Shown here: positions 2 through 20,934 of the stretch, one piece after another
Layout of the letters: the number at the start of each line of letters is the position of its first letter
Numbering within the stretch: the first letter of the stretch is position 1
Virus record (IMG/VR): IMGVR_UViG_3300020470_003412
Span: 1 to 21,114 of that record
Source: a virus
Strand: one strand, 5' to 3'
DNA: 21,114 nucleotides
The notes under the pieces: generated by a model
Told to the model about the DNA's origin: nothing
The model's input: only the letters and a program-made list of their open reading frames with translations
Databases searched by the model: none
Program-made: the position numbers and the translations under genes

Positions 2-454
2 GAGGATAACAAACTTACAGTGGATATGAAGGCGTACATCAACGCGAACATCCGACAAGGACAGGCGATACGAGATACGGCAAAGATGGCAGCTGGAGTA
101 ATCAAACACATCGAAACCAAGCATCTGAAAGCGATAGAGAAAGTCAAAACACAGACTACCAGAGACAAGAAAACCGCCAGTATGCAACTGCTCCTAGATA
201 CTCTAGAAGAACGCAAAGATCAAATAAAGATCATATTTGATGTCATGCGTGCTTTCCAGTTATGTAAAAACTACATCACACACAAACTGGAAAGGATCAA
301 AGGAATGACAGATACCTTTGTCAAAACAGACTCAGGTTTCAAGGTTACAGCCCCAGAAGGTTTTGTTGCAATTTCTGGAGGTAAAGCGATCAAGTTGGTT
401 GATCGTCTTGAGTTTTCCATGAACAATTTTAACGCAGTAAAAAGCTGGGACTAA
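2..454 (+). CDS. C-terminal part of a marine T4-like phage protein, possibly ligase-like (5' end outside window)
   Basis: The reading frame is open from the first bases, so this is the last ~150 codons of a longer gene; the internal GTG at 20 and ATG at 26 are probably not the true start. The visible part is Lys-rich and helical, then ends in a compact segment with PEGFVAISGGKAIKLVDR near the C-terminus. From memory, the EGxV...KLVDR arrangement resembles the end of a large family of marine T4-like phage proteins (DUF6267-like) whose N-terminus carries a KWDG motif. That pattern is reminiscent of motifs I, IV and V of covalent nucleotidyltransferases (DNA/RNA ligases). Motif I is outside the window, so function is not established. 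The stop codon abuts the ATG of the next small gene. Confidence 0.75.
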   Translation, partial: EDNKLTVDMKAYINANIRQGQAIRDTAKMAAGVIKHIETKHLKAIEKVKTQTTRDKKTASMQLLLDTLEERKDQIKIIFDVMRAFQLCKNYITHKLERIKGMTDTFVKTDSGFKVTAPEGFVAISGGKAIKLVDRLEFSMNNFNAVKSWD

Positions 455-619
455 ATGGACAATCCACTATTAAACAGATTCGCTAGACAGAATAGACTGA
501 ATCCAAACGAGACCAATCATGACCCTTTGACTAGGTCACTCATTGATGCGGTCCAACAAGTATACACAAAGAAGGACGAAGATGAGACTGGAGCACCAGA
601 TCAAGAACGTAGTGAATGA
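455..619 (+). CDS. Small hypothetical phage protein (54 aa)
   Basis: A 54-codon ORF starts with an ATG directly after the TAA of the upstream gene (TAAATG), which implies translational coupling. The product begins MDNPLLNRFARQNRLN and ends in an acidic tail (KKDEDETGAPDQERSE). It has no membrane segment, cysteine or recognisable motif, and I cannot assign a function. Its 3' end overlaps the next gene by 38 bases in a different frame. Exact head-to-tail placement, a good start and protein-like composition support it as real. Confidence 0.6.
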   Translation: MDNPLLNRFARQNRLNPNETNHDPLTRSLIDAVQQVYTKKDEDETGAPDQERSE

Positions 620-1433
620 GAAGTATACAGAAACGCCAGGTGAAAAAGGTGGTCATCAAGAACACCCTATCTCCAAGAAGACTTCTGACTACGAAGAAAA
701 ACACTTCCATGCCGCATCTGGAAAAGACGATAGAAATACGTTCATAACAGGTAAGAAACCTGAACATCCAGAGGACGTAGAGGACAAGGCTCATAAAGAT
801 GGGAAGTCCAACAAAGTCAAAGGTCAAGATGGGGGAGAAGGAAATATCAATGCCCAAGAAGAACAGGTAGAAGAAATGGCTAAACCTAAGTTCGACATGG
901 GTAAGATGAAGAAACTGGCAAAGAAAGACGGATTTATTGCGATGGCGATGAAGAAGGATAAGCCAGAGGTTATTTTCAATACTTACATCGCTCAGAACAA
1001 AGCGATGATTCAACAATACAACGAGGAATCAGAAATGAATATCGATCTCAAAGCTGTTGAGAATCTTTCTGAGAAGAAAGGCGTTAAGCCTGAGGAAGAA
1101 ACCTTTATGGGTAAAATCGCTCACGCTCATCAACAAGGCAAGGACAGTGTAGAAATTGGTGGTAAGACTTACCCAGTCAAAATGAAGAAGTCTACGGCCA
1201 AGGCTATCAAAAAGAATAAAGGTGAAGACGAACAGGTCAAAGAGAATATGACTTTCGAAGAGGCTGTTCGTGCAGCTCAGGAAAAAGGGGCAGTCAATGC
1301 TCAGAAATACTGGGAAGAAGCTGCGAAGACCAAACAAGAAGGTTGGGGTGGAAAAGGTGGAGTTCCTGGCAAGGGAACAGTTACCACTGTCCGCAAGAAG
1401 CCTCAAGGTGGAATGACAATGGGTGGGAAGTAA
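582..1433 (+). CDS. Lys-rich hypothetical phage protein (283 aa)
   Basis: The frame is open from a TTG at 543, but the ATG at 582 is preferred because GAAGGA (571-576) lies 5 bases upstream and the overlap with the small upstream gene is smaller. The product is very hydrophilic. The first ~90 residues look disordered (His, Lys, Glu and Gly rich). The middle (from about residue 95) has helical Lys-rich segments such as MGKMKKLAKKDGFIAMAMKK. A short beta-like stretch reads VEIGGKTYPVKMKKSTAKA, and the tail is Gly/Lys rich (GGKGGVPGKGT). No enzymatic motif is seen. It lies just upstream of the three-domain ligase gene. Lys-rich composition and location could suit a virion or internal head protein, but that is inference. 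Confidence 0.7.
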   Translation: MRLEHQIKNVVNEKYTETPGEKGGHQEHPISKKTSDYEEKHFHAASGKDDRNTFITGKKPEHPEDVEDKAHKDGKSNKVKGQDGGEGNINAQEEQVEEMAKPKFDMGKMKKLAKKDGFIAMAMKKDKPEVIFNTYIAQNKAMIQQYNEESEMNIDLKAVENLSEKKGVKPEEETFMGKIAHAHQQGKDSVEIGGKTYPVKMKKSTAKAIKKNKGEDEQVKENMTFEEAVRAAQEKGAVNAQKYWEEAAKTKQEGWGGKGGVPGKGTVTTVRKKPQGGMTMGGK

Positions 1434-1434
1434 T

Positions 1435-3480
1435 TTGTCCAAGTCATTCTTTCAACTCAGGGAAGATACAGGGAAGACGGCAGTATTTGCATTCGGCCGT
1501 CTAAACCCACCAACAACAGGTCACGAGCTTCTAGTCAAGACTATAGAGAAGTTGGCAAGGAAACACTCTGCTGACCCATTCCTATACTTGTCTCATTCTG
1601 AAAATCCAAAGAAAGACCCACTACCATATAATCTGAAAGTCGCTATCGCGAAAAAAGCTTTTGGAAAGCTCGTCCAGAAGGATGATGCTAGAACTGTGTT
1701 TGACGTTGCCTACGACTTACGCGACAAAGGATATACAAGATTGATTTTGGTAGCTGGGTCCGACAGGGTTCCTCAGTTCAAGGCACAATTCTCAAAGTAC
1801 GTTGACCATCCTGACAAGACAAAGACAGTAGGGAAACACTTTGACGTTATCTCTGCAGGGGAACGAGATCCAGATGCAGAGGATGTGTCAGGTATGTCAG
1901 CCAGTAAGATGAGAGCACTCGCAACTTCCAACGAGTTTGGTGAGTTCAGACAAGGTGTCCCATCAAAACTAAGTGACGCTGATGCCAAGAAGATGTACAT
2001 GGCCTTACGTAAGGCGATGAAGATCAGAGAAGACTGGAGTGAGTTTGATTGGGACGAATACTATCCTGAGAGAGAAGAACTTGTCGAGACAGTAGAAGTC
2101 GAGGAAAAATTTACCTATCAGAGATTGATGGAACAGAAGGAACAACCTACGTTTCTGATTCTTTGTGTCGTAAAACCAGAAGACTCTACACCACAAGAAT
2201 ACTGGTTGAAACACGAAAACGTGCACATTGTCTATGTTGATAAAGCATTTACCCATCTCGTAGAGGACACTAAGTTAGTAATACACAACTACGATGGTGA
2301 AAATAAATCATTGTCTGTAGACCCTACGAATACATTCGCAATTCCTTTGGGATCAGTATTGATGGACGAAGGAAGAATGGGCGTTGCTAAAGCGGTCGAA
2401 CAGGCGGGTGTACCATTCATGAACTCGATGGAAGCGATGGAGGCGGCGAGAAACAAATTGTCGACTGCTCGTATCCTTCAGTCCAAGGATGTTGCTACAC
2501 CTAGAACTGCAGTGATTCATTCTGGAATCACAGATGAGGTAGTTGAGACTCTGGGAGGAAAGTTCCCGATGATGCTCAAAACCATCACAGGTTCTAAGGG
2601 TAAAGGAGTGATGAAGATGGAAAGTCTATCGTCACTCAGAGGTGTCGTAGATGCTTTCTCAAAACAGACAGACGCACAACTGATAGCTCAAGAGTTCTTT
2701 GACCTGAAGTATGATGTCAGGGTCATTTGTCTTGAGGGTGAGGCTAGATTCGGACTCAAACGAAACATCGCGAAAGGTGACTTTCGTACCAACGTAGATT
2801 TGGGTGGAGACTTTGAGGCGTATAAACCTTCAGACGAAATGAAGAAACTGGCAGAAAAGGCCACACATGCTCTGGGTATGAGACTGTCAGGTGTCGACAT
2901 TGCAGTCAACCGAAAAGGTGAACTGACTGTTCTTGAAGTCAATGGTTCGCCTGGTGTTTCGGCTAAATACTATGACATACAGAACAAGAATGACATCGAT
3001 GGAAAACAACTCATCGAGACACTTTACGAGTTTTATTCAGACAAATCAAACTGGTCCAAACAGTCTGTTCCAATCGGAGTGATTGAACCAGTGGGATTTG
3101 CGTGGGGTGAGATGATGTGTAAGATGGACACAGGAAACTCTGGTTCAGCTACACTTGACGCACGTGATCTCAAAGTCACAAAAACCAAAGCTATTTTCAA
3201 AGTCGGTGACACTGGTAAAATGGCGACCTTTCCTATCAAGGACTATGAGGTTGTCATGGGTGCAGTAGGAACCGACAAAGAGAAACGACCAGTCGTTGAG
3301 ATTCCAATGAACTTCAAAGGGAAGACATACAAAGTGAATTTCTCATTATCAGACAGGTCTCACATGGGTTACCCAGTTCTTATGGGAACTGAGTGGATGA
3401 AAGAAAATGGATTCATCGTAGACCCTAGAATCAGAAACGAAGAATATTTACCACAAGGAAACTATGTCCAAATACGCTGA
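1435..3480 (+). CDS. Three-domain fusion: nucleotidyltransferase + RimK-like ATP-grasp ligase + RimB-like retropepsin
   Basis: Start: the frame opens at GTG 1423, but TTG 1435 gives a natural N-terminus (SKSFFQLRED) just after the upstream stop, with GGGAAG at 1425-1430 as a weak ribosome site. Residues ~10-200 form a nucleotidyltransferase of the HxGH/NMNAT-like class: FGRLNPPTTGH with H30, later GSDRVPQF and the signature-loop variant GMSASKMRA, a block I recall from many marine T4-like phages. Residues ~237-535 are a RimK-type amino-acid ligase: a pre-ATP-grasp region, ARNKLSTARILQSKDVATPRT-like entry, a glycine loop GSKGKG, FFDLKYDVRVI, and the metal-binding end LEVNGSPGVS (~500). Residues ~550-681 match the retropepsin-like 'ATP-dependent zinc protease'/RimB family: MDTGNSGSATLDA with D565, then LSDRSHMGYPVLMGTEW and FIVDP. 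In bacteria RimK adds glutamates to ribosomal protein S6 and RimB is a partner peptidase. Substrate here is unknown. The 3' end overlaps the acidic-protein gene by 17 bases. Confidence 0.85.
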   Translation: MSKSFFQLREDTGKTAVFAFGRLNPPTTGHELLVKTIEKLARKHSADPFLYLSHSENPKKDPLPYNLKVAIAKKAFGKLVQKDDARTVFDVAYDLRDKGYTRLILVAGSDRVPQFKAQFSKYVDHPDKTKTVGKHFDVISAGERDPDAEDVSGMSASKMRALATSNEFGEFRQGVPSKLSDADAKKMYMALRKAMKIREDWSEFDWDEYYPEREELVETVEVEEKFTYQRLMEQKEQPTFLILCVVKPEDSTPQEYWLKHENVHIVYVDKAFTHLVEDTKLVIHNYDGENKSLSVDPTNTFAIPLGSVLMDEGRMGVAKAVEQAGVPFMNSMEAMEAARNKLSTARILQSKDVATPRTAVIHSGITDEVVETLGGKFPMMLKTITGSKGKGVMKMESLSSLRGVVDAFSKQTDAQLIAQEFFDLKYDVRVICLEGEARFGLKRNIAKGDFRTNVDLGGDFEAYKPSDEMKKLAEKATHALGMRLSGVDIAVNRKGELTVLEVNGSPGVSAKYYDIQNKNDIDGKQLIETLYEFYSDKSNWSKQSVPIGVIEPVGFAWGEMMCKMDTGNSGSATLDARDLKVTKTKAIFKVGDTGKMATFPIKDYEVVMGAVGTDKEKRPVVEIPMNFKGKTYKVNFSLSDRSHMGYPVLMGTEWMKENGFIVDPRIRNEEYLPQGNYVQIR

Positions 3481-4339
3481 CCTAGCACACAAGATTGTTG
3501 ACATGGTCCACGCCACTCACAAAGAAGAGGTTAGGAAGGCGAAGACCGAAGAGAAGACCAAGAAGGCCGAGGAAAAAGAAAAACTAAAAAATGAGGCCGA
3601 AAAGGAAGATGACGAAGAAAAAGAAGATGATGAGGAGAAAGAGGACGAGAATGGCGATCCTGTAGGAAAAGCTCCAGAGGGTGAAGAAGGGGATAAAGAA
3701 GAGGGTGACGATGAAGAAGAGGAACCCGAAGAAGAACCACCCGCAGAAGAAGGCGGAGAAGAAGCACCTGCAGAGGCACCACCCGAAGGAGGAGCACCAC
3801 CTGAGGCTGAGGCTCCACCAACTACCGACTCTATGGGTCGACCAGTAACAGGAATGGGTAAGAAATCACCTATTACACCTAAAAAAGATTCACCAAAGGT
3901 AAAGATGTCAGGAAAGAAAGAGAAAGTCAAAGTCGAATCATTTGACGATGTCGATAAGTTGATTCGCGAAAGACAAGAGTATCTAAATGAAAGATACAGT
4001 TTTGATTGGGAGTCCGTAGACAAAGAGTTTGGTATTCGTGAAAAGATGATTGCCGAAGGAATGTGGGACGGAAACATTGCAGACAGTGCCGAGATTTACG
4101 GCAAGCCTGACATCTCCCAGTTACAAATTTACAGACTATTGGAACTCTACAAAGCTGCGGGGATGAACCTCGACCAGTCCTTGAGGACTATCGAGCATCT
4201 CTATGGAGTTCAAGTACAGACAGACTCAAACGGAAATCTGGACTTCAGCGATACAGACTATTCCAAAGGTGATACCTACGGAATGAACATGGGTCAGAAC
4301 TTGGACTATTACAAGCCAGGTGTGATTCGTGAACAGTGA
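3464..4339 (+). CDS. Acidic Glu/Pro-rich linker protein (291 aa), function unknown
   Basis: ATG 3464 has AAGGA at 3455-3459 and overlaps the ligase/peptidase gene by 17 bases, so the two are probably translated together. Residues 1-30 form an amphipathic helix (MSKYADLAHKIVDMVHATHK). Residues ~30-120 are an extreme low-complexity zone, first Lys/Glu, then repeated EEKEDD, then Glu/Pro/Ala (EEPPAEEGGEEAPAEAPPEG). A basic Pro/Ser/Lys patch follows, and from ~160 a folded helical domain (FDDVDKLIRERQEYLNERYSFDWESV). The C-terminus is Tyr/Asn/Gly rich. I do not recognise the family. The domain-linker-domain layout suits a virion protein or a tethering factor. Its immediate position after an amino-acid ligase makes it a candidate partner or substrate, which is inference only. 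Confidence 0.75.
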   Translation: MSKYADLAHKIVDMVHATHKEEVRKAKTEEKTKKAEEKEKLKNEAEKEDDEEKEDDEEKEDENGDPVGKAPEGEEGDKEEGDDEEEEPEEEPPAEEGGEEAPAEAPPEGGAPPEAEAPPTTDSMGRPVTGMGKKSPITPKKDSPKVKMSGKKEKVKVESFDDVDKLIRERQEYLNERYSFDWESVDKEFGIREKMIAEGMWDGNIADSAEIYGKPDISQLQIYRLLELYKAAGMNLDQSLRTIEHLYGVQVQTDSNGNLDFSDTDYSKGDTYGMNMGQNLDYYKPGVIREQ

Positions 4340-10385: not shown

Positions 10386-10692
10386 TGAAAAACTCGTGCC
10401 AGGTGAAGAAGTGAGGAACGCGATAGTAGACGTAGAAGTCGTGAAGGTCAAGGTCGACCACATCGCATCTTCATTTGACAAACACGTATCTCAAAATATA
10501 GCTGACTTCAAAGAAGTTCATTCCCGATTGTCCAAACTCAGAGATGAGATAAACGAGGACATTGAGAATACTTGGAAAGAGGTCGACAGACTAAATCGGT
10601 GGAAGTGGATGTTTACAGGCATCCTACTGACACTCACGTTTGCGATGACACTCATGCAGACGTACGCATCATTTTTCGGAGCAATCAAATGA
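10378..10692 (+). CDS. Coiled-coil protein with C-terminal membrane anchor (104 aa)
   Basis: ATG 10378 lies inside the end of the upstream gene, with a purine-rich GAGGACGGAAG stretch just before it. Residues ~10-75 are a long charged coiled coil (VEVVKVKVDHIASSFDKHV, then RLSKLRDEINEDIENTWKEV). The basic/aromatic boundary RLNRWKWMF follows, and a single transmembrane helix (TGILLTLTFAMTLMQTYASF) ends near the C-terminus. This is the layout of a tail-anchored phage membrane protein, reminiscent of XhlA-like or spanin-adjacent proteins, but without sequence proof. The gene overlaps the next by 4 bases (ATGA). Together with the membrane protein at 8675-9010 it could form a lysis or superinfection-exclusion pair; that is inference. 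Confidence 0.65.
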   Translation: MADEKLVPGEEVRNAIVDVEVVKVKVDHIASSFDKHVSQNIADFKEVHSRLSKLRDEINEDIENTWKEVDRLNRWKWMFTGILLTLTFAMTLMQTYASFFGAIK

Positions 10693-11150
10693 AAACATTT
10701 TTAGAATACACCAGAGACCAGCAAGAAGAGGGTATCGGTGATACACTAAAGAAGGGTGTAAAATCCGTCGCTAAAGCGGGCGGTAACCTCATGAAGAAGG
10801 TAAAGGGTGATGGTAAGAAAGACAAAGGTCCAGGCTTGATGGACAAAATCAAGTCAGGAGCGAAGAAAGTCGTTCAGGCTGTAGGTCGTGAATTTCAAAA
10901 AGGAAAAGACGCCGCTAAAGCAGAACGACCACCTAAAGACAAAAAGGCAAAACAACAAGCCAAGGTAGACAAGGGTAAAGCGATGGGTATCTCAGAACTG
11001 GAACCTACAAAGAATGACGTAGACCAGACTGGTGATGCTTTCGAAAAGAAAGAGAAGGACGCAAAGATCAAAAAGAAGGAAGATGAAAGAGAAGAGGAAC
11101 AGCGTAAATTAGAAGCTGGATATGCTCCTCTCCCAGTAGACCAGCGGTAA
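10689..11150 (+). CDS. Very basic Lys-rich protein, candidate internal head protein (153 aa)
   Basis: The frame is open from 10572, but that upstream part is a shadow of the previous gene. ATG 10689 in an ATGA overlap gives the clean N-terminus MKTFLEYTRDQQEE. That N-terminus resembles the M-K-T-Y/F capsid-targeting peptide of T4 internal proteins. The rest is strongly basic, with repeated amphipathic KKGVKSVAKAGGNLMKKVKG-type segments up to residue ~100, then alternating Lys/Glu helices (EKKEKDAKIKKKEDEREEE). No cysteine, membrane segment or catalytic motif is seen. Composition and N-terminus fit a DNA-neutralising internal head protein; this is inference. It is the last gene before the promoter at 11152. 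Confidence 0.65.
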   Translation: MKTFLEYTRDQQEEGIGDTLKKGVKSVAKAGGNLMKKVKGDGKKDKGPGLMDKIKSGAKKVVQAVGREFQKGKDAAKAERPPKDKKAKQQAKVDKGKAMGISELEPTKNDVDQTGDAFEKKEKDAKIKKKEDEREEEQRKLEAGYAPLPVDQR

Positions 11151-11190: not shown

Positions 11191-12198
11191 ATGCTTTTCA
11201 TTGATGTCGAGTACGCCAGACGCCTAGGTGTACAACTCCGAAATTTCAAGGACAAGGGAAGGAACCTTTTCAACTTCTCTTGTCCACTCTGTGGCGATTC
11301 CAAAAAGAATAAAAGAAAGGCACGAGCCTACTTCTACGAGAAGAAAGGTGGTCTGTTTTTCAAGTGTCATAATTGTGGTCGAGGAACCACACTCTCCAAA
11401 CTAATCTCCCAAGTAGATTCTGCATTAGGTGAAGAATACAAAGTCGAAAAATTCAGACAAGGGTCTCACAATAACAACCCAGTGGAGAAACCCGCTGAGT
11501 CGGTCCAGCAGGCTGAACTGGCTAAGAAGGTGGAAGACAACTATATCGGTCTCAAGTCAGTCCACTCTCTCACCAACGATCACATAGCCTGGAACTTTTG
11601 TGAGAAGAGACTCCTACCCTATCCACCAAGGAAAGACTTGTACTTTGCTCCAAGGTTCAAGACATGGGTCCAGACCAAGTCAGACAACCCGCGGTATGCA
11701 GAACTTCAGGATGACGCCAGACTGGTGATCCCATTCTATGATGCGAATGGTAGACTGATTGCCTGTCAGGGACGGAGTCTGATGAAATCTACTATTCGGT
11801 ATTTGACAGTCAAGTTTGTAGAGGACGCACCAAAGGTATACGGGCTAGATCGGTGGGAACCACAACGTAGAACCTACGTAGTGGAAGGTCCATTGGACAG
11901 TCTATTCATCGACAACTGTCTAGCGGTAGCTGGTGCAGACCTTACGGAATTCAGTTTACTAAATAAGAAACTTACCACATTAGTGTTCGATAATGAACCT
12001 CGTAATCAAATCACTGTCAAGAAAATATCCTCAGCAATTGACAGAGGTTATGCGGTATTCATTCCCCCAGAACATTTCTCAGGTAAAGACATCAACGAAG
12101 CTATATTGAATGGACATCGAGGTATTCAAAGTATCATCGATGGAAACACTTTTGAAGGGGCTATTGCCTCGCTAAAACTATCGCAATGGAAGAAGTGA
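11191..12198 (+). CDS. DNA primase, T4 gp61-like (zinc ribbon + Toprim)
   Basis: It makes RNA primers for lagging-strand replication, working with a replicative helicase. The N-terminal zinc ribbon uses C31 and C34 (CPLCGDSKKNKRKARAYF) and C59 and C62 (FFKCHNCG). The Toprim catalytic fold has E232 in YVVEGPLDSLFID and the acidic pair at VFDNE (D267, E269). Length (335 aa) is close to T4 gp61 (342 aa), and marine T4-like primases have the same CP-CGDS opening. No other in-frame start fits. There is no Shine-Dalgarno sequence, consistent with the promoter placing the RNA start just before ATG 11191. It overlaps thyX by 13 bases and begins the nucleotide/replication operon. Confidence 0.88.
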   Translation: MLFIDVEYARRLGVQLRNFKDKGRNLFNFSCPLCGDSKKNKRKARAYFYEKKGGLFFKCHNCGRGTTLSKLISQVDSALGEEYKVEKFRQGSHNNNPVEKPAESVQQAELAKKVEDNYIGLKSVHSLTNDHIAWNFCEKRLLPYPPRKDLYFAPRFKTWVQTKSDNPRYAELQDDARLVIPFYDANGRLIACQGRSLMKSTIRYLTVKFVEDAPKVYGLDRWEPQRRTYVVEGPLDSLFIDNCLAVAGADLTEFSLLNKKLTTLVFDNEPRNQITVKKISSAIDRGYAVFIPPEHFSGKDINEAILNGHRGIQSIIDGNTFEGAIASLKLSQWKK

Positions 12199-12974
12199 AA
12201 ATACACGACCACGGCTTTGTCCGTCTGGTCGATCATATGGGAACCGATGAGTCCATAGAGAATGCGGCTCGTATCTCTTATGGTGACGGCACGCGAAAGA
12301 AGTCCGAAACTGAGGGACTTCTCCGATACCTTATGCGTCACCGACATACATCTCCATTTGAGATGTGTGAAGTTGTCTTTCATCTCAAGTTACCTATTTT
12401 CGTGATGAGACAACTTGTACGACACAGGACGGCATCGTTGAATGAATATAGCGGTCGGTACTCAGTAATGAGCGATGACTTCTATGTTCCAAGTAGAGAA
12501 TATCTTAGAAAGCAATCAGCAACGAACAAACAAGGTAGGTCAGATGAGTTGGCAGACAAGGGTGGGTTACTACAATACGAATACAATCGTTCCCACGATG
12601 GAAGTCATACCGCATACCAAAACCTACTAAGAGAAGATGTGTCAAGGGAAATTGCACGGGCCGTGCTCCCTGTATCAAATTATACTGAAGTTGTATGGAA
12701 GAGTGATTTACATAACTTTTTTCACATGGTCAAGTTACGTAGTGACGCACATGCACAACAAGAAATAAGAGACTACTCAGATGCCATGTATGAAATGGTA
12801 AAACCTCTCTTTCCGATTTCCTGTAAAGCTTTCGAAGATTATGTTCTCAATAGTGTGAGTTTTTCGCAAGAGGAATTGCGAATAATCAAAGACCAATTGG
12901 ATGGATCTTGGACTATGGACAACTATAGTCTAAGTAAACGAGAACGAACAGAATTTTTGGAGAAGCTAAAATGA
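12186..12974 (+). CDS. thyX: Flavin-dependent thymidylate synthase ThyX
   Basis: ThyX makes dTMP from dUMP using FAD, NADPH and methylene-tetrahydrofolate. The signature RHRxxSxNExSxRY is intact as RHRTASLNEYSGRYS (residues 79-93). Typical flanking elements are present: AARISYG at ~28-33, RHRHTSPFEMCEVVFHLKLP (51-70), and the C-terminal LHNFFHMVKLRSDAHAQQEI carrying the Arg/His residues of the nucleotide/folate site. Length (262 aa) is in the normal range. ATG 12186 lies inside the end of the primase gene; no strong ribosome site is visible, so coupled re-initiation is likely (GTG 12195 is an in-frame alternative). The gene ends in an ATGA overlap with nrdJ, so the two dNTP-supply enzymes are co-translated. 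Confidence 0.95.
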   Translation: MEEVKIHDHGFVRLVDHMGTDESIENAARISYGDGTRKKSETEGLLRYLMRHRHTSPFEMCEVVFHLKLPIFVMRQLVRHRTASLNEYSGRYSVMSDDFYVPSREYLRKQSATNKQGRSDELADKGGLLQYEYNRSHDGSHTAYQNLLREDVSREIARAVLPVSNYTEVVWKSDLHNFFHMVKLRSDAHAQQEIRDYSDAMYEMVKPLFPISCKAFEDYVLNSVSFSQEELRIIKDQLDGSWTMDNYSLSKRERTEFLEKLK

Positions 12975-15082
12975 CGGACGCTATGACTGCACTAGCACAT
13001 AAGGAATTTGAAGAACGAAACCAACCACAACGAATAAGGGAGTTACCAACATTTTATCAGCAGTTTATACACAAGAGTCGATACGCCAGATGGAACTATG
13101 ACCTACAACGTAGAGAAGAGTGGGGCGAAACTGTACAGAGATACATCGACTTTTTCGATGGTCATTTGAAAAAGAATTTTGATTATAGTCTGAGTGAGTC
13201 AGAACTGAAAGAGTTGAGAACCAGTATCGGCGAACTCAAGGTGATGCCTTCTATGCGTTGTCTGATGACAGCGGGAGAAGCATTAGAGAAAGAAAACGTA
13301 GCAGGGTATAACTGTTCATTTGTCGCAGTTGATACACCAAGAGCGTTTGACGAGATTCTGTATGTACTGATGAACGGAACAGGTGTGGGTTTTTCAGTAG
13401 AGACAAAATACACAAATAAATTGCCTGTCATCCACGAGGAGTTTCATCCTACTGATACAACCATCGTGGTCGCTGATTCCAAACTGGGATGGGCGAAGGC
13501 ATTGAAACAACTGATTGCTTTGTTATACAACGGAGAAGTTCCAAGTTGGGATGTCTCCAAGGTACGACCTGCTGGTGCACCACTCAAGACATTCGGTGGC
13601 CGAGCTAGTGGACCCGAACCTTTAGTAAATTTGTTCAACTTCTGCACGACCAAGTTCAAGTCCGCTGCAGGTAGAAAGTTGACATCCCTAGAGTGTCACG
13701 ACATCGTATGTAAAATAGCCGAGATTGTGGTTGTTGGGGGAGTAAGACGTTCCGCGTTGATTTCTCTATCCGACCTCAATGATAGGGACATGCGATACGC
13801 GAAATCGGGAAACTGGTGGGAGAGCGAAGGTCAACGGGCTTTGTCAAATAACTCAGTCAACTATCAAGAGAAACCTGGCATGGGTTCCTTCATGAAAGAG
13901 TGGTTGAGTCTTTATGATTCCAAGTCTGGTGAGAGGGGAATCTTCAGTTCTTACGCCTCAAAGAAATCAATAGAAAGGTTAAATGACAGACACAGAATTC
14001 GAATGGATAGACTCGGACTACTTGGAAATGACGGAAGTGGACGAGGAGACAATAGCGGAGGAGATGGAACTGGAGGAGTTGGAGATGATAGCGGAGGAGA
14101 TGTTCGAAGGCGCTCGCCGAGAGATGACTTTGGCACAAATCCGTGCAGTGAGATCATTCTTCGCTCAAGGGAATTCTGCAACCTTTCTGAAGTCGTTATC
14201 AGAAGGACAGACACTCTTAAATCTCTCAAAGCAAAAGTCCGTACTGCGACAATCATTGGAACACTACAGTCCACTCTTACCAACTTCAAATACCTGACGA
14301 AGGAGTGGGAGAATAACTGTAAAGAAGAGAGACTTCTTGGTGTGTCGATGACAGGTATCATGGACAACCCAGTGACCAATGGTTCAGAGGGAAAAGAGAA
14401 GCTCTCTAAATGGTTACAACAATTAAGGGAGGTCGCAGTTGAGACAAACGAAGAATGGTCAGACAAACTTGGAATCGAAAGATCCGCAGCAATCACGTGC
14501 GTTAAACCTTCTGGTACAGTTAGCCAGTTGGTCGATTCTGCCAGTGGTATACATGCTCGCCATAACCCATATTATATTCGGACTGTTCGTGCAGACAACA
14601 AAGACCCACTCTGTCAGTTCATGAAAGACATGGACTTTCCACACGAACCAGACTTCATGAAACCAGATCACACAACTGTATTTTCGTTTCCTATGAAATC
14701 CCCTGACGATGCAGTAATGAGATACGATAGGGACGCCATCGAACAGATGGAATTGTGGAAGACGTATCTGGAAGACTGGTGTGAACACAAACCTTCTATC
14801 ACAGTATCAGTCAAGGAAAATGAATGGATGCAGGTAGGTTCTTGGGTATACGACAACATGGATGATATCTCAGGTATCTCCTTCTTGCCGTTCTCAGACC
14901 ACGTGTATGCTCAGGCTCCTTACCAAGATTGTGATGAGGAAACTTATAATGAACTTCTAGCTAGAATGCCTAAGAACGTAAATTGGGAAGAAGTTTCCAA
15001 GTACGAAGCACAAGATTACACTGCAGGAGCACAAGAATTAGCGTGTGCTGCTGATGGTGGGTGTGAGGTAGTTGATATCTAG
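12971..15082 (+). CDS. nrdJ: Monomeric class II (adenosylcobalamin-dependent) ribonucleotide reductase NrdJ
   Basis: It reduces ribonucleotides to deoxyribonucleotides using coenzyme B12. Class II is shown by a single chain with GYNCSF (C114), the finger loop FGTNPCSEII (N390, C392, E394), EFCNL (C403), CVKPSGTVSQLVDSASGIHA (510-529), and the monomeric-RTPR-type ending LPFSDHVYAQAPYQDCDEET. A C-terminal redox pair C692/C698 follows. The C392-C403 spacing of 11 equals C408-C419 of the Lactobacillus leichmannii enzyme. There is no ATP cone, glycyl-radical tail or NrdB gene. Odd feature: residues ~343-382, just before the finger loop, are a Gly/Asp/Arg low-complexity segment (GNDGSGRGDNSGGDGTGGVG) absent from the canonical loop as I remember it. 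The host or environment would need to supply cobalamin. It starts in an ATGA overlap with thyX. Confidence 0.9.
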   Translation: MTDAMTALAHKEFEERNQPQRIRELPTFYQQFIHKSRYARWNYDLQRREEWGETVQRYIDFFDGHLKKNFDYSLSESELKELRTSIGELKVMPSMRCLMTAGEALEKENVAGYNCSFVAVDTPRAFDEILYVLMNGTGVGFSVETKYTNKLPVIHEEFHPTDTTIVVADSKLGWAKALKQLIALLYNGEVPSWDVSKVRPAGAPLKTFGGRASGPEPLVNLFNFCTTKFKSAAGRKLTSLECHDIVCKIAEIVVVGGVRRSALISLSDLNDRDMRYAKSGNWWESEGQRALSNNSVNYQEKPGMGSFMKEWLSLYDSKSGERGIFSSYASKKSIERLNDRHRIRMDRLGLLGNDGSGRGDNSGGDGTGGVGDDSGGDVRRRSPRDDFGTNPCSEIILRSREFCNLSEVVIRRTDTLKSLKAKVRTATIIGTLQSTLTNFKYLTKEWENNCKEERLLGVSMTGIMDNPVTNGSEGKEKLSKWLQQLREVAVETNEEWSDKLGIERSAAITCVKPSGTVSQLVDSASGIHARHNPYYIRTVRADNKDPLCQFMKDMDFPHEPDFMKPDHTTVFSFPMKSPDDAVMRYDRDAIEQMELWKTYLEDWCEHKPSITVSVKENEWMQVGSWVYDNMDDISGISFLPFSDHVYAQAPYQDCDEETYNELLARMPKNVNWEEVSKYEAQDYTAGAQELACAADGGCEVVDI
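14052..14102 (+). repeat. Internal direct repeat (15 bp, twice) within the nrdJ low-complexity insert
   Basis: ATAGCGGAGGAGATG occurs at 14052-14066 and 14088-14102, 36 bases (12 codons) apart, embedded in a purine-rich GGAGGA/GGAGAT tract. In the nrdJ frame it encodes Gly/Asp/Ser-rich sequence. In the +1 frame it encodes I-A-E-E-M both times. Confidence 0.8.
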
Positions 15083-15289: not shown

Positions 15290-15634
15290 ATGGGTAATCT
15301 GACTTTTTCAGAATTAATGGAAGGTCCAGTCCCAGGCTTTCGTATGACTGGCGGCGGAAGAGGAAAAACTCCTAAGAGAGTGAAGTTCTTCTTCTGCGGT
15401 CCAGGCCGAAAACGAAAATCGATGGGACCAGGCAAACCACCAAAATGTCTTCCGAAGGGTATGCCGACCAAAACTGGGGCGGCGAAGATCAAGGACATGA
15501 TGGGTAGGAAAAAGGCACAGAAAACTAAGAGAGCGTTGGGACCAGCTTATAAAAAGAGGGTCGCGTTTAAAGCATCAGTCGCTCACAAGTTCCGTAAAAA
15601 GTTTGGCATCAGAAATGTTGGAAAGTCAGCATGA
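15290..15634 (+). CDS. Highly basic Lys/Arg/Gly-rich head-cassette protein (114 aa)
   Basis: ATG 15290 follows the previous stop by 7 bases, with GAGGAAA and GAAGGA purine tracts upstream; the gene ends in an ATGA overlap with gene 21. The N-terminus (MGNLTFSELMEGPVPGFRMT) is followed by a basic loop with two cysteines (FFFCGPGRKRKS, KPPKCLPKGM) and then basic helices (KIKDMMGRKKAQKTKRAL, KASVAHKFRKKFGIRNVGK). Net charge is extremely positive. In T4 the basic core protein gp68 lies between gp67 and gp21, so position and charge suggest a gp68-like or nucleic-acid-binding core protein. I see no sequence signature to prove this. The two Cys within Gly/Lys/Pro repeats are unusual. Confidence 0.6.
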   Translation: MGNLTFSELMEGPVPGFRMTGGGRGKTPKRVKFFFCGPGRKRKSMGPGKPPKCLPKGMPTKTGAAKIKDMMGRKKAQKTKRALGPAYKKRVAFKASVAHKFRKKFGIRNVGKSA

Positions 15635-16308
15635 AACTAATCAAAGAATTTAACGAAAACCTTATCTGTGAGAGCGTCGTTTCCGAAGAAGGTAAGACGA
15701 AGGACTATTTCATAGAGGGAGTTTTTCTGCAGGGAGACATTAAGAATCGTAATGGTCGAGTCTACCCGAAGCCCGTACTCCAGAAGGAAGTGAAACGCTA
15801 CACGAAGGAGTACGTGAATAGTAATAGAGCTTTTGGTGAGTTGGGTCATCCCGATTCTCCTACAGTAAACCTAGATCGTGCTTCCCACATGATCAAAGAA
15901 CTCAACGAAGATGGTTCCAATTATATTGGTAGGGCTAAAATTATGAGTACACCAATGGGAGAAATCGTGAAGAACCTTATCGATGAGGGAGCCAAACTTG
16001 GTGTGAGTTCTAGAGGTATGGGCTCGTTGAAACCCAATAGTAGTGGAGTCAATGAAGTCCAAAAAGATTTCATGTTAGCCACCGCTGCCGACATTGTAGC
16101 AGATCCATCTGCCCCTGACGCTTTCGTAGAAGGTATCATGGAAGGAGTGGAATGGATTTGGGATAATGGTCTCTTGAAGAGGGTTGACCTAGAATACGCA
16201 AGGGATCAAATAAACTCTGTTGCCGCCACGAAATCTAGTGTGCTCGCAGAAGAGAGACAGAAGGCTTGGTTATCCAAGTTTGACATCTTCGCTTCTAGTT
16301 TGCGGTAA
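15631..16308 (+). CDS. gp21: Prohead core protease gp21
   Basis: This is the maturation protease that cleaves capsid, scaffold and internal proteins after L/I-x-E during head assembly. The family signature is clear: GVFLQGDIKNRNGRVYPKPV near residue 30, catalytic His in FGELGHPDSP (H73), a Ser in LGVSSRGMGSL (S126/S127), and D154 in ADIVADPSAPDAFVEGI. The His-Ser separation of ~54 residues matches T4 gp21. Length (225 aa) is near T4's (212 aa). Its own N-terminus MKLIKEFNE resembles the targeting-type peptide. It starts in an ATGA overlap with the basic protein gene and precedes gp22, the standard T4-family order. Confidence 0.93.
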   Translation: MKLIKEFNENLICESVVSEEGKTKDYFIEGVFLQGDIKNRNGRVYPKPVLQKEVKRYTKEYVNSNRAFGELGHPDSPTVNLDRASHMIKELNEDGSNYIGRAKIMSTPMGEIVKNLIDEGAKLGVSSRGMGSLKPNSSGVNEVQKDFMLATAADIVADPSAPDAFVEGIMEGVEWIWDNGLLKRVDLEYARDQINSVAATKSSVLAEERQKAWLSKFDIFASSLR

Positions 16309-20033: not shown

Positions 20034-20452
20034 ACTACCTAGACATTTGGGAAAGAGACTCACGGATTTCTGATGACCTAACATTGGAGTCTTTGAAAAT
20101 CCCACAACTCCATTCAAAATGGATGAAGTATCTCTATGCAGAGAAAAATGAACTGGTCATCATCCAACGAGCGTACTACAAAATGAAACGACTCCGTTGG
20201 GAATACTATAATGGAACCATCGACCACAACGTACTAGATAAGATGGGATGGGAGCCATTCCTACAGAAAATATTGAAACCAGACCTACCTATGTGGCTGG
20301 ACTCCGATAAAGAACTTGGGGAACTCAAAGACCAGAGGACCAGAAAGGAGCAAACAATATCTTTACTTGAACAAATCATCAAACAAATAACCGAAAGACA
20401 ATGGACTATTAAGAATGCCATAGAATGGCGTAAATTCGAAATGGGAGCATGA
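20030..20452 (+). CDS. uvsY: UvsY recombination mediator
   Basis: UvsY loads the UvsX recombinase onto single-stranded DNA coated with gp32 during recombination-dependent replication. From TTG 20030 the product is 140 aa (T4 UvsY 137 aa). Characteristic features are an acidic N-terminal helix (NYLDIWERDSRISDDLTLES), then PQLHSKWMKYLYAEKNELV, RAYYKMKRLRWEYYNGTID, the LPMWLDSDKELGELKDQR block, and the C-terminal TERQWTIKNAIEWRKFEMG, matching the SRGFAIKHIQDMRAFEAG-type ending of T4. The TTG sits in a TTGA overlap with the upstream stop; the longer frame to 19982 is a shadow. Gene order gp23, tail gene, uvsY is as in cyanophages. Confidence 0.88.
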   Translation: MNYLDIWERDSRISDDLTLESLKIPQLHSKWMKYLYAEKNELVIIQRAYYKMKRLRWEYYNGTIDHNVLDKMGWEPFLQKILKPDLPMWLDSDKELGELKDQRTRKEQTISLLEQIIKQITERQWTIKNAIEWRKFEMGA

Positions 20453-20934
20453 TGAAAGTCTCAAAAAAGGCGAAACTTCTTAAAAAGGTAAAAATGTTAG
20501 AGTTCAATAACCCTATCATAACGACCCTCATAGGATTGGTCGTATTTTATATTGGTCTTAAAATGTTTTCAGGTGGAATGAAATCGATGGGTAACATTGA
20601 CCACCTACAATGGTTCTTAGGAAATCCTATCTATATGTTTTTTGGTGGGATTGTTATGACACTCCTGTGGCAGTCAAGTTCTCTGTCCACAACAGCGATC
20701 ATAGGTTTGGTTGCTGGTGGAGCTTTACCCCTTCCCGCTGCGATAGGTGCAGTTCTAGGGGCGAACATAGGTACTACAGGTACAATATGGTTAGCGGGCA
20801 TTCTGGTGAGTGATGGAATGCCGACAGGTATTACGAAACAAATTGCTATGGTTCATACTGGAGTAAATCTTTTGATGGCTGTTATGTTATTACCATTCGC
20901 ACATCAAATAGCGAAATTTGTCTCCAGATTCTAA
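20449..20934 (+). CDS. Half-length Na/phosphate cotransporter-like membrane protein (161 aa)
   Basis: It belongs to the Na/Pi-cotransporter family (PF02690; NptA/YjbB). The diagnostic repeat is present once: LLWQSSSLSTTAIIGLVAGG, then LPAAIGAVLGANIGTTGTIW. About four hydrophobic segments can be seen: IITTLIGLVVFYIGLKMF, NPIYMFFGGIVMTLLW, the QSSS/GANIGTT region, and VHTGVNLLMAVMLLPFA. Family members normally carry two inverted copies of this unit, so this protein would have to act as a homodimer or is an incomplete or regulatory form. It has a very basic N-terminus (MMKVSKKAKLLKKVKM). ATG 20449 overlaps the uvsY stop, and ATG 20452 is equivalent. It is a likely auxiliary metabolic gene for phosphate or another ion; transport is not proven. 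A CTAAATAG box overlaps its stop. Confidence 0.82.
   Translation: MMKVSKKAKLLKKVKMLEFNNPIITTLIGLVVFYIGLKMFSGGMKSMGNIDHLQWFLGNPIYMFFGGIVMTLLWQSSSLSTTAIIGLVAGGALPLPAAIGAVLGANIGTTGTIWLAGILVSDGMPTGITKQIAMVHTGVNLLMAVMLLPFAHQIAKFVSRF

Follow-up and report, generated by a model that had tools for sequence, protein, structure and literature searches.

The bacterial enzymes RimB and RimK also occur as physically joined RimBK hybrids (Pseudomonas, Desulfotalea), in which RimB comes first and which are active on polyglutamylated RpsF; RimB stimulates RimK besides removing glutamates (PMC11957791). In RloA, the residues K46, R114 and R137, which are common to RimB, provide the basic contacts with polyglutamate (PMC12239564). 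In phage T4, the internal proteins IPII and IPIII start with MKTYQEFIAE/A (here and below, the slash follows the leader Glu), and a capsid-targeting sequence of this type is enough for foreign proteins to be packed into T4 (PMC3012670, PMC9024508). Cytidyltransferase/NMNAT proteins recur in the virions of cyanophages, in a proteome study whose authors allowed for contamination by abundant proteins (PMC10665884).

The DNA described here (the window) is a stretch of 21,114 nucleotides, IMG/VR record IMGVR_UViG_3300020470_003412, from a T4-like virus that has marine phages among its relatives. Its frame at 1435-3480 encodes a single intact chain in which a T/HxGH nucleotidyltransferase (NTase), a RimK-type ATP-grasp ligase and a RimB/RloA-type retropepsin follow one another (Table 1).

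Table 1. The fusion gene, its parts and the neighbouring genes, in window coordinates.
Feature	Coordinates	Strand	Basis or remark
DUF6267 protein, C-terminal end, first gene of island	20..454	+	PHROG 455; PF19782 E 2e-102 on L004 copy
Lys/Glu-rich ORF	543..1433	+	adjoins fusion also in L004, L240; no family match
Three-domain fusion protein, 681 aa	1435..3480	+	open frame 1435-3477 plus stop
Fusion leader MSKSFFQLRE (then D)	1435..1464	+	same position as capsid-targeting leader of NTase relatives
NTase domain, T/HxGH (aa 13-201)	1471..2037	+	PHROG 3041, fold; H30 codon 1522-1524
Linker, low confidence, pLDDT<50 (aa 208-235)	2056..2139	+	AlphaFold
RimK-type ATP-grasp ligase (aa 238-541)	2146..3057	+	profiles and fold; metal ligands D488, E501, N503
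RimB/RloA-type retropepsin (aa 545-666)	3067..3432	+	catalytic D565 at 3127-3129; K563, R618, R641
Acidic ORF, overlaps 3' end of fusion gene	3464..4339	+	78 D+E in 291 aa; adjoins fusion also in L004, L240
Basic 153-aa ORF, starts MKTFLEYTRDQQEEG	10689..11150	+	candidate internal head protein, by eye like T4 IPI (MKTFKEFTST...ITEA)
gp61-type DNA primase, downstream border of island	11191..12198	+	PHROG 47 E 3e-68
gp21-type prohead protease (Peptidase_S77), expected leader-cutting enzyme	15631..16308	+	PF03420 E 9e-38

Three enzyme domains in one chain

The first-pass annotation had called the three domains from their motifs and had likened two of them to RimK and RimB; both the domains and the analogy are borne out by profiles and fold comparisons, and the catalytic residues, which it had named correctly, are invariant far beyond chance. 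In the profile search, aa 338-522 matched RimK (PF08443) with an E-value of 6e-29 and 101 bits against a cut-off of 21. The match to TIGR00768 at aa 312-508 reached 136.6 bits, just under the curated cut-off of 143.4, and the ligase domain is therefore filed as RimK-like and not as RimK itself. The retropepsin/Zn_protease family PF05618 was matched at aa 600-665 (34.1 bits, cut-off 27), and aa 10-202 corresponded to PHROG 3041, 'cytidyltransferase', with E 5e-52; for this NTase domain, neither the Pfam search nor the comparison of its profile with PDB sequences gave a match.

The AlphaFold model (mean pLDDT 81, 50 sequences) has three folded domains with the approximate limits given in Table 1. 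ATP-grasp matches filled the structure search with the full-length model; for the retropepsin a sequence profile was therefore used, and the NTase was modelled by itself. By fold, the middle domain has RimK 5zct as its nearest match (Z 28.2 over 281 residues), with which it also has the motif GDFR[S/T]N in common (GDFRTN in the fusion). The retropepsin profile found the RimB/RloA-family PDB entries 9g58, 9g59 and 2pma, with E-values from 2e-11 to 6e-9. The NTase model resembled HxGH adenylyltransferases of the PPAT/NadD kind at Z of about 14 (PPAT 14.4, tied with NadD), a resemblance that does not name its substrate.

Among the 20 NTase sequences compared, H30 is invariant, and TxGH and S155-A-S-K158-x-R160 (ISSxxxR-type) are kept in all 20 at the positions checked. 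The ATP-grasp residues K382, D427, R429, R451, N453, D488, E501 and N503 are the same in 34 of 34 sequences, as is D565-T-G-N568 of the retropepsin. This invariant DTG marks the last domain as an aspartic retropepsin instead of the 'zinc protease' of the Pfam name of PF05618, and 'glutathione synthetase', the annotation of the homologue in phage Mosig, was likewise rejected, the GSH-S_ATP score lying far below that of RimK. RloA residues K46, R114 and R137 align to K563, R618 and R641 of the fusion, with the RloA numbering mapped via 9g58 aligned to the phage profile and an inferred offset of 20; in the phage family, the first position is K or R in 34/34, the second R in 12/12 and the third R in 32/34. 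The cutting of polyglutamate by the phage retropepsin is a reasoned prediction, and glutamate specificity is suggested indirectly, by the RimK-like GDFRTN motif and by these conserved polyglutamate-contact residues. Ribosomal protein S6, as a possible target of the ligase, is chosen by analogy with RimK.

The PPAT/NadD-like fold of the NTase, together with the ATP-grasp relatives LysX and ArgX that lie within 1 Z of RimK, would also suit a small-molecule pathway, in which the NTase activates a metabolite (NMN, a pantetheine-like or a cytidylyl compound), the ATP-grasp domain couples an amino acid and the retropepsin is regulatory. This is improbable, as the retropepsin keeps its polyglutamate-binding residues, the majority of the family members are without the NTase, and the NTase has other fusion partners elsewhere, e.g., DUF5824.

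Distribution and origin of the fusion

An assembly join as the source of the fusion is ruled out, because at least four other IMG/VR contigs, from four metagenomes, hold the same three-domain architecture at 84-89% identity. TTG is the start codon in the window and L002; in L001, L003 and L004 the codon at this position is ATG. That no phage system with the three activities fused had been described, as was first supposed, is consistent with all that was found (at least five contigs, and no isolate at 80% coverage), but the two-domain combination of RimK and retropepsin is common in phages and a RimB-RimK hybrid had already been described in bacteria (PMC11957791).

ATP-grasp–retropepsin proteins without the NTase were located at no fewer than 573 IMG/VR loci (573 of the 600 candidate stretches listed encode relatives). 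The isolates with this two-domain protein include the pelagiphage Mosig, where it is annotated 'putative glutathione synthetase' and follows regA, and the Yersinia phages YerA41 and GN1, where it is annotated 'structural protein'. Bacterial relatives are mostly on MAG contigs, and the closest are probably phage DNA. The two-domain protein thus represents a large phage family and the three-domain fusion a provisionally rare form, the scans having been pattern-based and the counts lower bounds.

On contig L076, DUF6267, an ORF, an unfused NTase, a protein of the Zeta-toxin/AAA-type kinase kind and an unfused ATP-grasp–retropepsin gene follow one another, and the nearest two-domain relatives in the alignment are those of L075 and L076 (37 and 34% identity). 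From this order and closeness, the fusion most likely arose by the joining of neighbours within one island.

The island and its neighbours

The island lies in an interval that has UvsX and a DnaB-like helicase upstream (seen on L240) and the primase downstream. DUF6267, complete in L004 with 418 aa, has a KWDGAPA motif (window 20-454; L004 3761-5017; L069 8365-9612) that resembles the lysine motif with which polynucleotide ligases bind the nucleotidyl group; DUF6267 proteins adjoin the NTase or are fused to it, and the copy in Melnitz opens with a capsid-targeting-like leader, MINFSKYITE. P-loop kinases of the Zeta-toxin/AAA type stand beside the NTase in the same island (L076 3193-4812; HTVC008M, L266 1821-2483). 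The gp21-type protease was found also in the records of three relatives.

Two further genes of the window were noted in passing. Positions 12971-15082, next to ThyX, encode a ribonucleotide reductase that bears signatures of the B12-dependent class (class II) and has an unusual stretch rich in Gly and Asp, GRGDNSGGDGTGGVGDDSGGD, and a short Na+/Pi cotransporter gene (20449-20934, PF02690 E 1e-15), a possible phosphate-uptake auxiliary gene, lies downstream of gp23.

The N-terminal leader

The phage ATP-grasp–retropepsin proteins start with MKAPKFREFISE/A, MEKFKSFITE/A and similar sequences, and in the Mosig homologue MQVQPFKNYLEE runs up to the leader Glu. A first, loose leader motif had a background of about 3%, which was too weak, and a stricter motif and a scoring matrix were used instead. 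The strict motif was found in 5 of 8 non-redundant ATP-grasp–retropepsin representatives versus 3 of the 264 remaining proteins on those contigs (Fisher p 2.5e-7), and one of these three, L095, is a misfiled family member. The matrix, trained only on 21 distinct leaders of the phage ATP-grasp family, placed IPIII and IPII second and third among 243 T4 ORFs, a score reached by 0.15% of random N-termini; in Mosig and S-SCSM1 it put the phage's own homologue (of 200) and the virion NMNAT (of 55), respectively, in first place. With it, candidates for internal head proteins can be picked out simply in unknown T4-like phages. First in T4 was gp61.1 (L153 18966-19130, 54 aa, MKTFKEFIKEDM...), which is encoded beside primase gene 61, a gene of the type that borders the island, and which is possibly an unrecognised internal protein of T4.

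The NTase family, which is not homologous to the ATP-grasp–retropepsin family, has the leader as well. In cyanophages it reads MKKFSAFLTE/A (S-RIM2), MKKFSAFLIE/A (S-CAM8), MKRYTNFLSE/A (S-CREM1) or MKSFLQFLKEA, and a spacer separates it from the NTase; the common leader of IMG/VR NTases, MKTFKDIRE/A, has one residue less and gets a lower matrix score. A RimK-like ATP-grasp protein of Melnitz-3 (L071 82-1131) carries the leader MTQKFSQFITEE and has no retropepsin; the tag thus does not depend on the protease. No matching leader was found in gp066 of YerA41, and a few two-domain members (L114) are also without one. The late promoter TATAAATA was not found upstream of the genes, and the T4 IP genes are likewise without it within 150 nt.

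In the window protein itself the leader is degenerate and its matrix score negative, while Glu10 (P1; LRE/D) is invariant in 20 of 20 sequences. Virion delivery is therefore a conclusion at the level of the family, extended to this member, whose putative capsid tag is argued only from the position of the leader and from Glu10. The basic ORF at 10689-11150 also scored negative, and its likeness to IPI was seen by eye only.

Virion reports for relatives

The product of S-SCSM1 gene 91 (NMNAT), which has 37% identity to the NTase of the fusion (E 2e-34), is a virion protein by mass spectrometry. Of the surrounding genes, 89, 90, 92 and 93 carry virion-protein annotations, and genes 89-93 lie in the stretch that runs from the replicative helicase region to the primase, the same interval as the island of the window. 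YerA41 gp066, an ATP-grasp–retropepsin protein, bears its 'structural protein' label in a phage for which LC-MS identified 63 particle proteins (PMC7354516).

The same writer and eraser chemistry might belong to an ordinary enzyme that is produced in the infected cell and is not carried in the virion, its leader resembling the T4 sequence by chance or as a relic. The degenerate leader of the window protein, the S6 transferase of S-RIM32, in which no such leader was found, and the place of the fusion gene among replication genes, outside the head cluster, fit such an enzyme; however, the T4 internal protein genes are likewise outside the head cluster, and the enrichment of the leader, the T4 ranking by the matrix and the reports of homologues as virion proteins make an intracellular enzyme rather unlikely.

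The matrix results for the relatives, which point to the head core, would also agree with an action on the phage head, the retropepsin cutting Glu-rich scaffold or core proteins of the prohead (gp22 or the acidic neighbour) and the ligase modifying a head protein. RimB and RloA cut internal polyglutamate, gp22 contains the runs EEEE and EEEEE, and the gene following the fusion is acidic. On the other hand, these Glu runs are short, gp22 and gp67 of T4 are acidic too and T4 has no such enzyme, an ATP-dependent ligase would be of little use inside a DNA-filled head, and the family shows no linkage to head genes; little probability is given to a role in the head.

Proposed mode of action

The first-pass annotation stands in its domains, its analogy and its fusion, but it had missed the capsid-targeting-type leader of the relatives and the virion reports for homologues, and these change the likely mode of action. 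The computations show three intact enzyme domains, a leader in both parental families that matches the T4 capsid-targeting sequence, and a gp21-type protease in the window phage. On this basis the fusion is proposed, with the balance about even, to be a virion-borne, injected amino-acid ligase and polyglutamate protease with an added adenylyltransferase, and both parental phage enzyme families are probably packed in T4-like heads.

The fusion protein would be drawn into the prohead core, its leader would be cut by gp21 after LRE10, and it would be packed with the DNA and then injected. In the host, the RimK-type domain would add an amino acid (probably glutamate) to a host protein in an ATP-dependent reaction, the retropepsin would trim the polyglutamate, and the NTase domain, an adenylyltransferase of the NMNAT/PPAT kind, would add an activity of its own to the same molecule, perhaps the synthesis of NAD+. 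Host translation or metabolism would then be changed rapidly, before phage gene expression, as by T4 Alt. Since RimB stimulates RimK as well as deglutamylating, the fused pair could be a self-regulating unit.

More tentatively, and with somewhat less than even confidence, it is suggested that marine T4-like phages carry in their heads, for injection, a polyglutamylation writer and eraser by which host ribosomes (or some other host machine) are changed as the DNA enters, here fused to a co-packaged adenylyltransferase so that three activities reside on one polypeptide. To our knowledge, few virion-delivered protein modifiers have been characterised, T4 Alt being the classic one, and we know of no other virion-delivered amino-acid ligase; this one would be the first. 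If true, a widespread family of injected glutamate ligases and proteases would represent a novel means by which phages take over translation, and the Rim ribosome-modification pathway would extend to viruses. Relatives of one or other part of the fusion are carried by the cultured phages Mosig (a pelagiphage), YerA41 and S-SCSM1.

Comparison with known systems

T4 IPI-III and Alt resemble the proposed system in that an N-terminal capsid-targeting sequence is cut by gp21 and the proteins are injected with the DNA, Alt being a virion-borne protein modifier; their domains are unrelated to those of the fusion, and Alt acts by ADP-ribosylation in place of the amino-acid ligation predicted here. The cyanophage virion NMNAT/cytidyltransferases (S-SCSM1 gene 91, S-CREM2, S-CBWM1) offer a homologous NTase with a leader, the same helicase-to-primase interval and virion reports, homology and position having been tested for S-SCSM1, but they have neither ATP-grasp nor retropepsin and place a spacer between leader and NTase. 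The phage 'ribosomal protein S6 glutaminyl transferase' (PHROG 2599; S-RIM32) is a RimK-like ATP-grasp protein of T4-like marine phages as well, but has 292 aa and lacks both the retropepsin and the leader.

In the RloA-RloB-RloC system of Pseudomonas aeruginosa (PMC12239564), a retropepsin with the same Lys/Arg substrate contacts occurs beside an ATP-grasp protein, whereas RloA is unfused and secreted via a signal peptide and the system has no NTase; no RloB-like gene was seen at the window locus. RimK/RimB and RimBK share with the phage protein a RimK ATP-grasp with GDFR[ST]N and a DTG retropepsin of the polyglutamate-cutting type, and the physical fusion exists there too. They differ in the order, which is reversed in the phage (ligase first, protease last), in having DTGA where the phage has DTGN, and in the extra NTase domain, the phage genome and the capsid-targeting-type leader of most relatives. 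With its retropepsin C-terminal and not N-terminal to RimK, the fusion is not filed as RimBK; built from two phage enzyme families, it would work like the RimK/RimB pair.
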